NCBI GenBank assembly: GCA_009777815.1
Contig: WRLB01000014.1
Span: 1-33,656, forward strand
DNA: 33,656 nt
Direction: 5' to 3'
Source of the DNA: Bacteroidota bacterium
GTDB taxonomy: Bacteria; Bacteroidota; Ignavibacteria; Kapaibacteriales; UBA2268
Below are positions 11,946-28,416 of this stretch, piece by piece. Within the stretch, counting starts at the first letter, position 1. Every line of letters begins with the position of its first letter. Both the position numbers and the translations under genes were made by a program. The notes beneath the pieces were generated by a model. It did no database searches. It worked only from the letters and a program-made list of their open reading frames with translations, and had not been told where the DNA came from.

Positions 11946-12047
11946 TTCTATATGCAATTTGGCAAAATTGTTGCAAGGTGGCACAAAATTTAACCAAGTA
12001 TGAAATGCAGTAGTATTTTCATATTTCAAAAAAAAAAAAATAAAAAA

Positions 12048-12079
12048 TTTGGAAATTAGAAATAAAAAAGTTATTTTTG
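12048..12079 (+). promoter_or_regulatory. Promoter (-33/-7) for the BspA-like locus
   Basis: TTTG (12048-12051) and TATTTTTG (12072-12079) are 20 bases apart, the standard Bacteroidota -33/-7 spacing. An A13 run (12028-12040) lies directly upstream and could act as an UP-like element. The first ATG in the predicted transcript is at 12134, about 50 bases from the expected start point. Confidence 0.65.
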
Positions 12080-12133
12080 TATTCTAATAAAGTTGATACT
12101 ATCTTTTCAATATAAATATTAAGGATTACAGCA

Positions 12134-12280
12134 ATGTTTAAATCAAAACATTATCAGGGAAACGGTACCCTTGCAAAAAATACCGACACCTCCTCCAATG
12201 CTATTTGTAGTGCTATTACTACAAGCAATGTAGTAGAAACTACTACACGGGGGGGGGGATTCTTACTGCAAAGCGTGTAG
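12134..12280 (+). CDS. Promoter-proximal ORF ending just after the G10 tract
   Basis: This is the first ATG after the promoter at 12048-12079. As written, the frame encodes 48 residues (MFKSKHYQGNGTLAKNTDTS..., then ETTTRGGGFLLQSV) and stops at TAG 12278-12280. With one G fewer (or two more) in the tract, the frame passes through 12280 without a stop and fuses in frame to the signal peptide of the BspA-like protein. The peptide is polar, rich in Thr, Ser and Asn, and matches no family I know. It may be the true N-terminus of the downstream protein in an 'on' state, a leader peptide, or a consequence of a homopolymer miscount. Confidence 0.45.
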   Translation: MFKSKHYQGNGTLAKNTDTSSNAICSAITTSNVVETTTRGGGFLLQSV

Positions 12281-12293
12281 TAGAATCACTACA
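12206..12293 (+). promoter_or_regulatory. Overlapping inverted repeats around the G tract (alternative hairpins)
   Basis: Four inverted repeats built from TGTAGT/ACTACA-type words: 12206-12211 with 12218-12223; GTAGTAG 12230-12236 with CTACTAC 12240-12246; CTACTACACG 12240-12249 with CGTGTAGTAG 12274-12283; and 12276-12281 with 12288-12293. The second and third share 12240-12246 and so exclude each other, and the third and fourth share 12276-12281. The G tract lies in the loop of the 10-bp hairpin. This layout resembles an attenuator or a slippage-promoting structure. Confidence 0.6.
12249..12258 (+). repeat. G10 homopolymer tract (candidate contingency locus)
   Basis: Ten consecutive G in a strongly AT-rich region, 115 bases into the promoter-proximal ORF. 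The distance from ATG 12134 to the in-frame TTG at 12315 is 181 bases, so one deletion restores the frame. Confidence 0.7.
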
Positions 12294-12314
12294 AGCAGCG
12301 ACAAAACCCATAAT

Positions 12315-15176
12315 TTGCTGCATAAAACATTCGCAATGGCGATGTTTATTTTATCTCTATTATTCCTGTTTAATCTCCCCGCACAAGCACAAACAGATGC
12401 AACCCTAACAATTAATTATGCTGACTTGACAACACCAGGCGTTATCACAAGATCTGATGTTGTAGAGTTGATTGGCTATCCAGTAGCCAATGGTATTGGT
12501 ACTGGTGCAACAGGTGTTTGGACCAATATTGATTGGGATACAGGTGATCCCAATATCCTTACAGGAACAGGAACATTAAAAATCATTATCGCTGCTGATA
12601 TTACAGATATAGCAGATGCAGATGCAGGGACCCCTGCTTTAGGAGTATTTGCAGCATTTGAATGCCTAACAGAAGTGGAATTTGCTGGTACTCTACAGAT
12701 GGCTAAAATAGGCAATGCTGCATTTTTGGGATGCAAAAATTTGTCAAGCATTACAATTCCATCAAGCGTAACCGAAATAGGCAATAGTGCGTTCTCAAAT
12801 TGTATAGCATTGACAACAATCGAAATTCCTTCAGGTTTAACTATGGGGCATTCTGTGTTTTTGGGTTGCACAGGATTGACAAGTGTTACATTAACGGATG
12901 GATTGCCAAGTATAGGTCCAAATACATTCCAAAATTGTATTGAGTTGACAAACATTACAATTCCAGGAAGCGTGACAACGATAGGAGCAAGTGCATTTAA
13001 TGGTTGCACAACATTGGTTAGTGTTGCACTATCTGATGGATTGCTAAGTATAGGTCCAAATGCATTCTTCAGTTGTAATAAGTTGCCAAGTATTACAATT
13101 CCATCAAGCGTAACCGAAATAGGCGATGGTGCGTTTGTTAGTTGCACAACATTGACATCTGTTACATTTTCAGCACCTTCAGTTTTACTAACTATAGGTG
13201 ACAATGCATTCCAAAATTGTAATCAGTTGCCAGGCATTGAAATTCCAGGAAGCGTGGAAACTATAGGAGCAAGTGCGTTTCAGGGTTGCGTAGAATTGTT
13301 ATCTGTTACATTAAATCATGGATTGCAAAATATAGGTAACAATGCATTCAGAGATTGTTATAAGTTGCCAAGCATTGAAATTCCAGGAAGCGTGACAACG
13401 ATAGATGTAAGTGCGTTTCGTGATGCAATTGTTTTAGCATCTGTTACATTTTCAACTCCTTCAGTTTTGCTCACGATAAATGCTGACGCATTTTGGGGTT
13501 GCGCATTGTTACCATCAATTACAATTCCTGCAGGCGTAACAACCATAGGAGCAAGTGCATTTGCTTATTGTGCTAATCTAACATCAATTACAATTCCAAC
13601 AAGTGTAACAACTATAGGAGGAAGTGCGTTTGTTGGTTGCCATGGCGACCTATCAGTAATATTTCCCGTTGAAATAGGTGATGGATTAACACATCTAACT
13701 CGCAGCAGTGTAGAAACTACTATTAATGATTTACTTACTGCTGGTTGGACTGGTCTTGGTTTTGACTGGAATTCTGGAGATCCAAATATTTTTGAAAATA
13801 CTAATGGTTATGTATTAAAAATCATTATCAAGAATAGTATTACAGAACTTGTAGATGAAACTTCTCCTGGTTTAGGAGTATTTGCTGCATTTAAATGCCT
13901 AAAAGAAGTGGAATTTGAAAGTGTTCCACAGATTAGTAAAATAGGCAGTGCTGCATTTTTAGGTTGCGAAGCATTGACAAGCATTACAATTCCAGCAAGT
14001 GTAATTTTAATAGGCAATGGAGCATTCCAAGATTGCATAGGATTAACGTCAATCGCAACGCCTACAAGTTTAGTAGATATAGGACATTCTGTGTTTATGG
14101 GTTGCACAGGATTGACATCTGTTACTCTAAATGAAGGATTGACAAGTATAGTTGCCAATACATTCCAAGATTGTATTGAGTTGCCAAGCATTACAATTCC
14201 ATCAAGCGTGGAAACTATAGGACAAAGTGCATTTTATGGTTGCACAACATTGGTTAGTGTTACATTAAATAATGGATTGCAAAATATAGGTGATAATGCA
14301 TTTTGGGGTTGCGAAGCATTGACAAGCATTACAATTCCTGCAAGCGTGATTGCTATAGGACAAAGTGCGTTTCGTGAGGCACTTGTTTTAGCATCTGTTA
14401 CATTTTCAACTCCTTCAGATTTAATATCTATAGGTGATAATGCATTTTGGGGTTGCGTTTTGTTAGGACCAGCAATTACAATTCCAGGAAGTGTAACACA
14501 CATAGGCGAGTTTGCGTTTCATTATTGCACTGCTCTAAACTCTATAACATTTCAACCATCAGCACAAGATTTGCTTTTCGAAGATTATCCATTCAGAGGA
14601 TGCGGAGCATTAGCAACAATAAACCTAACAGGTAGAACAGGTGGATTAATTTTTAGTAGACATGGATTATCGCAAACAGGAATAACAACTATAGATTTAA
14701 GCAAAGCAAGTGCAATTACTTTTGATAACTATACAGACGCTACTGGCGAAGGGTTCCGATTGTTTTTTGGCTGCACTAATTTAGAATCAATAGTATTGCC
14801 TGCCACTGTAACTACTATACCAAATGGAGCATTTGAGAATTGTGCTAAACTCAAAACACTTACAGGGTTAGATATCACATCCATCGGCGAGAGTGCTTTT
14901 GTTGGATGCACAGGTGGTTTAATTATAACATTAGGAGATGAACCACCAACTACAACAGGAGCAAATGCCTTTGGCGTTGATCATTCTTTATTACTATCTA
15001 AAAGTATCAGGATTAATATTCCGACAACTGCGAATAGACCTGCCTATGAAACTTGGTTTGCCAGTTTAGGTCTAGTTGGAATTACACTTAAAGATATAGA
15101 ATATACTACTTCTACTACCCGCATCAAGAAAATTAATGTTAAAAAAGGCAGGTTGATAATATCACCACAGCCTTAA
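12315..15176 (+). CDS. Secreted BspA-like leucine-rich repeat protein (LRR_5)
   Basis: About 950 residues. A hydrophobic signal sequence (AMAMFILSLLFLFNLPAQAQ) is followed by many ~23-residue LRR_5 units of the form 'ITIPSSVTEIGNSAFSNC', as in Tannerella BspA and Treponema surface proteins that bind host proteins or other cells. The repeat region is duplicated: residues from about 86 (LKIIIAADIT...LGVFAAFECL) are echoed from about 498 (LKIIIKNSIT...LGVFAAFKCL). The start is uncertain: TTG 12315 supplies the basic LHK n-region, while ATG 12336 would leave none; an upstream ATG at 12134 is out of frame because of the G10 tract. The protein ends GRLIISPQP, where a T9SS sorting domain would normally begin, so that domain is missing. 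The gene looks less AT-rich than its neighbours. Confidence 0.82.
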   Translation: MLHKTFAMAMFILSLLFLFNLPAQAQTDATLTINYADLTTPGVITRSDVVELIGYPVANGIGTGATGVWTNIDWDTGDPNILTGTGTLKIIIAADITDIADADAGTPALGVFAAFECLTEVEFAGTLQMAKIGNAAFLGCKNLSSITIPSSVTEIGNSAFSNCIALTTIEIPSGLTMGHSVFLGCTGLTSVTLTDGLPSIGPNTFQNCIELTNITIPGSVTTIGASAFNGCTTLVSVALSDGLLSIGPNAFFSCNKLPSITIPSSVTEIGDGAFVSCTTLTSVTFSAPSVLLTIGDNAFQNCNQLPGIEIPGSVETIGASAFQGCVELLSVTLNHGLQNIGNNAFRDCYKLPSIEIPGSVTTIDVSAFRDAIVLASVTFSTPSVLLTINADAFWGCALLPSITIPAGVTTIGASAFAYCANLTSITIPTSVTTIGGSAFVGCHGDLSVIFPVEIGDGLTHLTRSSVETTINDLLTAGWTGLGFDWNSGDPNIFENTNGYVLKIIIKNSITELVDETSPGLGVFAAFKCLKEVEFESVPQISKIGSAAFLGCEALTSITIPASVILIGNGAFQDCIGLTSIATPTSLVDIGHSVFMGCTGLTSVTLNEGLTSIVANTFQDCIELPSITIPSSVETIGQSAFYGCTTLVSVTLNNGLQNIGDNAFWGCEALTSITIPASVIAIGQSAFREALVLASVTFSTPSDLISIGDNAFWGCVLLGPAITIPGSVTHIGEFAFHYCTALNSITFQPSAQDLLFEDYPFRGCGALATINLTGRTGGLIFSRHGLSQTGITTIDLSKASAITFDNYTDATGEGFRLFFGCTNLESIVLPATVTTIPNGAFENCAKLKTLTGLDITSIGESAFVGCTGGLIITLGDEPPTTTGANAFGVDHSLLLSKSIRINIPTTANRPAYETWFASLGLVGITLKDIEYTTSTTRIKKINVKKGRLIISPQP

Positions 15177-17398: not shown

Positions 17399-17421
17399 TC
17401 TGAATATATAAAAATAGAATA

Positions 17422-17429
17422 CAAAAATA
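17422..17429 (-). promoter_or_regulatory. -7 promoter box for ftsH
   Basis: CAAAAATA reads TATTTTTG on the minus strand, preceded there by AAAAACCT, 23 bases before ATG 17398. It rules out the longer upstream frame. Confidence 0.65.
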
Positions 17430-17470
17430 AGGTTTTTATTTCTAATTTCCAAATGTTTTGTTTGTCGTTC

Positions 17471-27162: not shown

Positions 27163-28416
27163 TTACATATAGTTATGAGATGCTGAATCAAGTTCACTAT
27201 GGTTAGAGTGAATTTCACCCTTATTTTCCGTATTAAATATCTTTTTTATTTGGGGTATTTTATCTAATGAAGCAGATAGATTAACAACATCACGAGTTGT
27301 TGCTTTACCTGAACCAATGCGACTTATAAGCCGTTCCATATCACCCAAATTACGCAAAGTAGATACTAATTTTTCTAAAATCTGAGGATTAGTTGCCAAG
27401 CATTCTACGGCATCTAATCGGTTATGTATTGCTTCTAAATTATTTAGTGGTTGATTGAGCCATTTTCGCAATAATCTTGCCCCCGGCGGAGTAGTTGTTT
27501 TATCAAGCAATTTTATTAATGAACCATTGGCTTCGCCTTCTATATTTTGCAAAATTTCTAAATTTCTGCGTGTGGAATAATCAAGCAACATTCTGTCGGA
27601 TAAATTAAGTAAGCGTATAGTTTGTATTTGTGGAAGGTTTTGTTTTTGTGTTTCAGAAATATAGTGTAATATAACTCCTGCAGCAGATATTCCAACATTT
27701 AATGTTTCTATACCGAAACCTTTGAACGATGTTTTTTGAAATTGCCTTAATAACAACTCGATAGAAAACTCTTTTTCAAAAACCCATTCTTCTAATTTAG
27801 TATATGAAAGTTTAAGAGGCGATTGTGATAGTATATTTTCAATTTCATTACTTTGCGATTTAGAAAAAATAATTTCACGAGGCGAATACTGTTCTATTAC
27901 CTGTCCTATTTGGTCTGCACGGACTTCTCCTACTAAAAACTCACCCGTAGTAATATCACAAATACTAATTCCTGCAAATAATGAAGCATCTTTATTTTTT
28001 TGCAAATAAACAGAGCAAATAAAATTATTTCTGCTGCTTTCCAAAAGTTTATCATACAAAGATATTCCTGGCGTCACAACCTCAATAACTTCTCTTTTAA
28101 CAATCTTTCCTGTTTTATACTTCGGGTCCTCAATTTGCTCGCAGACAGCAACACGCAATCCTGCTTTAACTAATTTAGGAAGATATGTATCTAATTGATG
28201 ATGCGGAAAGCCCGCCAATGGTGATGCTTCAGCAGAACCATTGTTCCGTTTAGTAAGAGCAATCCCGCCAATTTTAGACAATAACGCCGCATCGTCATCA
28301 AAGCATTCAAAAAAATCGCCCATTCTGAACAACAGCAAAGTATCAGGATATTTTGCTTTAATATCGTAATATTGTGCCATTAGTGGCGTTGTATCTTTCT
28401 TTTTAGAAAACAGCAT
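27163..28416 (-). pseudogene. mutS: Truncated DNA mismatch repair protein MutS (N-terminal half only)
   Basis: 417 residues, against about 850-870 for full MutS. Domain I is intact, with the mismatch-reading FxE (Phe35-Phe36-Glu37 in RMGDFFECF) and LTKRNNG...LAGFPHHQLD. The connector domain (ICDITTGEF) and the first part of the core (LNLSDRMLLDYSTRRNLEI, LLDKTTTPPGARLLRKWLNQ, DMERLISRIGSGKATTRDV) follow. Homology ends near residue 395; the last ~22 residues are encoded by a REP-like repeat. Clamp and ATPase domains (Walker A, dimer region) are missing here and absent elsewhere in the window. The product cannot perform ATP-dependent repair by itself. The other half may be elsewhere, lost, or misassembled. 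Promoter at 28434-28441; rimM follows. Confidence 0.88.
27176..27205 (+). repeat. REP-like repeat at the mutS break point
   Basis: GAGATGCTGAATCAAGTTCA then CTATGG, a family member that encodes the last codons of the mutS fragment on the opposite strand. Confidence 0.7.

Follow-up and report, generated by a model that had tools for sequence, protein, structure and literature searches.

A poly-G tract ahead of a BspA-like gene is a probable phase switch within a multi-locus surface-protein family of an uncultured Bacteroidota bacterium

We analyzed a 33,656-nucleotide (nt) stretch of DNA (the window; contig WRLB01000014.1, assembly GCA_009777815.1) from a Bacteroidota bacterium of the order Kapaibacteriales. 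Its source, a 1.94-Mb MAG of 121 contigs (G000), is 72.88% complete. Its best FtsH relatives bear the labels Ignavibacteria, Kapabacteria/Kapaibacterium or Bacteroidetes, which suggests a place near Kapabacteria/Ignavibacteria. On the plus strand, the locus under study begins with a Bacteroidota-type promoter, TTTG-N20-TATTTTTG, at 12048-12079. A promoter had been predicted at this place, and its elements were located there (TTTG at 12048-12051 and, after N20, TATTTTTG at 12072-12079); the -7 part is common to nearly all copies of the cassette described below. As had also been claimed, the first ATG past the promoter lies at 12134, and its frame enters exactly ten G (12249-12258) and closes with a stop codon ending at 12280. 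The leader ORF as assembled (12134-12280) thus encodes 48 amino acids (aa), MFKSKHYQGNGTLAKNTDTSSNAICSAITTSNVVETTTRGGGFLLQSV*. It contains the palindromes TTGTAGT-N6-ACTACAA (12205-12224) and TGTAGTAG-AAA-CTACTACA (12229-12247), the latter abutting the G tract upstream. Beyond the tract, CGTGTAGTAG at 12274-12283 is the complement of CTACTACACG at 12240-12249; in other copies its equivalent supplies the signal peptide with the basic n-region (S/K)RVV.

The surface-protein ORF (12315-15176, plus strand) has a hydrophobic signal segment from about 12336 (MAMFILSLLFLFNLPAQAQ) and ends in the C-terminal tail TTRIKKINVKKGRLIISPQP (15114-15176), which is common to cassette-family proteins. Its product is BspA-like, matching LRR_5 (PF13306) with an E value of 1.9e-178 and 584 bits against a cut-off of 27.7. 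As assembled, the tract leaves this protein out of frame: 12315 minus 12134 is 181, or 1 mod 3, in agreement with the predicted offset of one base from the leader register. Of the in-frame starts downstream of the tract, TTG 12315 and ATG 12336 had been recognized, and ATG 12342 had been overlooked. The two ATGs lie just 5' of the hydrophobic segment and may keep the OFF state of the window copy leaky. The G10 tract is the only run of eight or more G in the window (shuffles gave a mean of 0.09 matches, and 0 of 100 had three).

When the source genome was searched at the DNA level with positions 12040-12420, 44 matches were obtained, of which about 25 cover the leader and the remainder only the promoter part. 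The same layout (promoter, leader ATG, about 40 codons, G tract, signal peptide, surface protein) occurs as a cassette in 24 copies. Since it recurs about 24 times with the same frame geometry, the arrangement in the window is beyond chance. Homopolymers of the length typical of contingency loci (about seven or more G or C in the 5' coding part) are present in the window (G10) and in the 24 copies (G7-G13), with tract lengths that short-read assemblies may misstate and with many copies sitting at contig ends. Four contig-end pieces (L145, L146, L149 and L150) have the appearance of assembly artifacts fused at the tract, and we left them out of the cassette count. No cassette copy was found in this genome outside an upstream position to a secreted protein. 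The pre-tract sequence pattern, present in 24 copies here, had 0 matches in 39 relatives, and a leader profile detected the same cassette in none of 59 relatives. Searches of genome_contigs and viral_contigs also gave no cassette, in collections that may both omit the window's own genome. Tracts of at least nine G number 25 in the source genome, mostly in cassettes, versus 0 to 13 in the 59 relatives. Separately, a promoter-containing stretch of about 42-47 bp (window 12040-12086, and 17415-17459 on the minus strand) has about 18 other occurrences across the genome at 93-100% identity. One of these falls within the annotated ftsH gene, right at its start, and the true start of ftsH is therefore probably further downstream.

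The leader start was readable in 22 copies, and the distance from the ATG to the tract was 1 mod 3 in 21 of them. These 21 regular copies have their homologous ATG 115, 118, 121, 124 or 127 nt before the tract, and this frame is open, whereas the two remaining frames are closed. In L027, the one exception, the ATG lies 95 nt from the tract; the frame is still open into the tract, and we counted this copy against a switch. Changes in leader length thus come in triplets, while the tract (G7-G13) and a few post-tract bases vary freely. Because the post-tract bases vary as well, the in-frame tract length is specific to each copy. Closely similar leaders carry unlike tracts: lengths are 13, 7, 9 and 12 in L016 (which stops at the contig edge), L021, L023 and L013, and 8 and 9 in L025 and L026.

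Tract length sets the frame of the protein relative to its start codon. Among the 17 complete copies (downstream ORF of at least 200 aa and standard distance), 5 were ON (L011, L012+, L013, L024 and L028) and 12 were OFF; free-running tracts would be ON in one-third of cases by chance. Nine copies have no in-frame ATG, GTG or TTG before the hydrophobic segment, apart from the leader ATG in those that are ON, and would otherwise be startless. Three of the nine are ON (L011, L024 and L028). The six that are OFF (L012-, L017, L023, L025, L026 and L029) keep intact ORFs of 246-502 codons. In most of the nine, the basic n-region, TTSRVV or TTKRVV, is encoded by the cassette.

Two paralogues have a leader without a tract that runs in a single frame into the signal peptide: L152 (contig C18, 700-codon ORF) and L030 (contig C36, short at about 95 codons). 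Since both leaders are fused in frame to the signal peptide, the leader is most likely the true N-terminus. When the same base changes were put at random sites, the chance of all 21 leaders staying open was 10^-3.3. The leader pN/pS ratio was 0.80 on nearest-neighbor links and 0.94 over all pairs, which we counted against a switch. Purifying selection on the leader peptide was rejected on these values, which leave almost no amino-acid constraint. Thus, selection appears to preserve the frame of the leader and hardly its peptide. We also rejected a conserved RNA structure in which CCTCCTCC pairs with the G tract: the window copy gave a z score of -4.2, yet compensatory changes were seen in 0 of 25 pairs.

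The cassettes precede genes for proteins with LRR_5, InlB-like Flg_new_2, beta-helix/PMP-type or WG repeats. Many of these proteins end in the tail RIKKINVKKGRLIITPQP; among the loci examined, it was found only in cassette-family genes, in 17 cases that include L031 and L149 (cut by contig ends) and the tract-free L152. In the form RIKKINVKKGRLI(I)xPQP, this conserved tail joins family members with different middle domains. It is possibly an anchoring or sorting signal. The type IX sorting domain Por_Secre_tail (PF18962) had no match in the window protein or in the scanned cassette proteins. In five copies (L012, L013, L014, L021 and L027), the cassette and the signal peptide are separated by another palindromic repeat, inserted in frame and read as (H/Y)AELVSASPxLTRRFRNKFGMT; it is also present elsewhere in the genome.

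Relatives from the same order have G/C tracts at comparable positions. A paralogue pair in G003 (L214) shows a cassette-like layout, MFQNVKGNYTLPKSPN(S/P)I, G10 and LRSF(I/V)PAIVIALSIFFATN, with both members out of frame. Further tracts lie in signal-peptide regions of other secreted proteins in G012 (L218 and L219) and G015 (L230, L251, L253 and L256). In a test for signal-peptide-like context, 21 of 100 tracts from relatives passed, versus 11.3 expected from random positions in the same loci (p = 0.004), and these tracts give modest support to a switch. Plain enrichment of G/C tracts at the 5' ends of ORFs was rejected (38 versus 49 expected). G9+/C9+ tracts in or beside signal-peptide regions of secreted proteins were also seen at L195/L220 (G009/G051); several such tracts in relatives are out of frame, and some occur in paralogue pairs.

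Mismatch repair genes of the source genome appear unusual. In most relatives searched, mutS is one ORF of about 880 aa. Here it consists of two separate intact genes that jointly span the whole MutS profile: the N-half (window 27163-28416, minus strand) covers profile positions 2-391 of 793, and the C-half (contig C6, L210:1722-3230, plus strand) covers 378-793. At its end, the N-half has a tail similar to the AELVSAS repeat. MutL (PF01119) had no match in the 73% complete source genome versus a presence in 35 of 39 relatives. If mismatch repair were weak in this bacterium, the tracts would slip more.

The roughly two dozen paralogous cassettes lend strong support to the original prediction of a phase switch formed by the G tract that separates a promoter-proximal ATG from a surface-protein frame. 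The cassettes keep their leader frame, their tract length is free, ON and OFF copies stand near 1:2, tract-free paralogues are fused in frame, and many copies lack an alternative start. We therefore put the probability at about 85% that one locus of a multi-locus, phase-variable surface-protein family is switched by the G10 tract. Translation would start at the leader ATG (12134), and about 40 leader codons would run into the tract. Slipped-strand gain or loss of G would then determine whether translation proceeds through the signal peptide and the BspA-like protein (ON) or meets a stop a few codons later (OFF). We infer that slippage proceeds within populations and that an OFF tract leaves little or no protein. 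The BspA-like and other surface proteins would probably flip on and off independently as the G runs change and, with one tract per gene in about two dozen genes, surface repertoires would form a mosaic across a population. Such diversity may serve against phage, grazers or hosts.

Slippage of RNA polymerase or the ribosome on the tract could instead let every copy yield some full-length protein, with DNA length only tuning the level. G10 is slippery, the ORFs of OFF copies remain intact and palindromes flank the tract, all of which suits such a mechanism. A programmed frameshift site would, however, hold one frame relation, and here three frame states, free tract lengths and variable post-tract bases are found; the tract-free paralogues, moreover, are simply fused. 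We consider this explanation unlikely. It is decidedly improbable, in our judgment, that translation starts downstream of the tract (at ATG 12336 in the window) and that the leader is an upstream ORF tuning translation by coupling or reinitiation. The window copy, L013, L014, L012+ and L027 do have an in-frame ATG beside the hydrophobic segment, but the nine copies described above have no such start and mostly take their basic n-region from the cassette, and an upstream ORF would not require its distance to the tract to change by triplets.

The palindromes around the tract also recall a spreading REP/MITE-like repeat, and tract differences might be assembly or sequencing noise, since some copies lie at contig ends, where one carries adapter-like sequence and others carry G/C-rich junk. 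We regard this combination as very improbable: every copy includes a promoter, an ATG and an open frame in which indels come in triplets, and every copy precedes a secreted-protein ORF; internal copies with clean flanks vary in the same way. At the level of assembled sequence, cassette repetition, the kept leader frame and the ON/OFF split are the signature of independently switching contingency loci. A broader proposal is tentative, and we hold it at less than even odds: the cassette, with its promoter, open leader, palindromes, G tract and n-region, may be a portable module that confers switching on unrelated downstream surface genes. Its setting would be an order in which signal-peptide regions of secreted proteins commonly hold G/C tracts, and a genome with unusual mismatch repair (split mutS, no mutL match).

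Simple-repeat phase variation is known best in host-adapted pathogens. The opa family of Neisseria gonorrhoeae comprises 9-12 loci, the frame of which is set by CTCTT coding repeats in the signal-sequence region (PMC13183285). By analogy, with homology not claimed, the present family likewise has many unlinked paralogous surface genes. Each has a repeat that sets its frame, located within or ahead of the signal sequence, and a minority are in frame at once. The family differs from opa in its poly-G tract rather than a pentamer, its unrelated proteins (BspA/LRR_5, InlB-like, beta-helix), its phylum, its long pre-signal leader and the palindromes flanking the tract; opa is backed by reads and expression (PMC13183285), and the present case by assembled sequence. 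In Candidatus Mycoplasma girerdii, BspA-like genes vary by (CA)n, with length variants counted in metagenomic reads (PMC5476646). That bacterium, also uncultured, shares BspA-like proteins, frameshift switching by simple repeats and several genes that are OFF in the consensus; its repeats are dinucleotides, and the available part of the report describes no common leader cassette, unlike the poly-G and leader cassette found here (PMC5476646). As in the poly-G contingency loci of Campylobacter and Neisseria (PMC6321876, PMC3786947), G tracts lying inside reading frames would switch expression by frameshift, but here one conserved cassette has been duplicated with its promoter ahead of many secreted proteins.

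In a limited literature search, we found no report of simple-repeat phase variation in Kapabacteria/Ignavibacteria-like Bacteroidota. If true, switching of about two dozen surface proteins by poly-G tracts, together with the G/C tracts at signal peptides of relatives, would extend this kind of variation to these uncultured bacteria.
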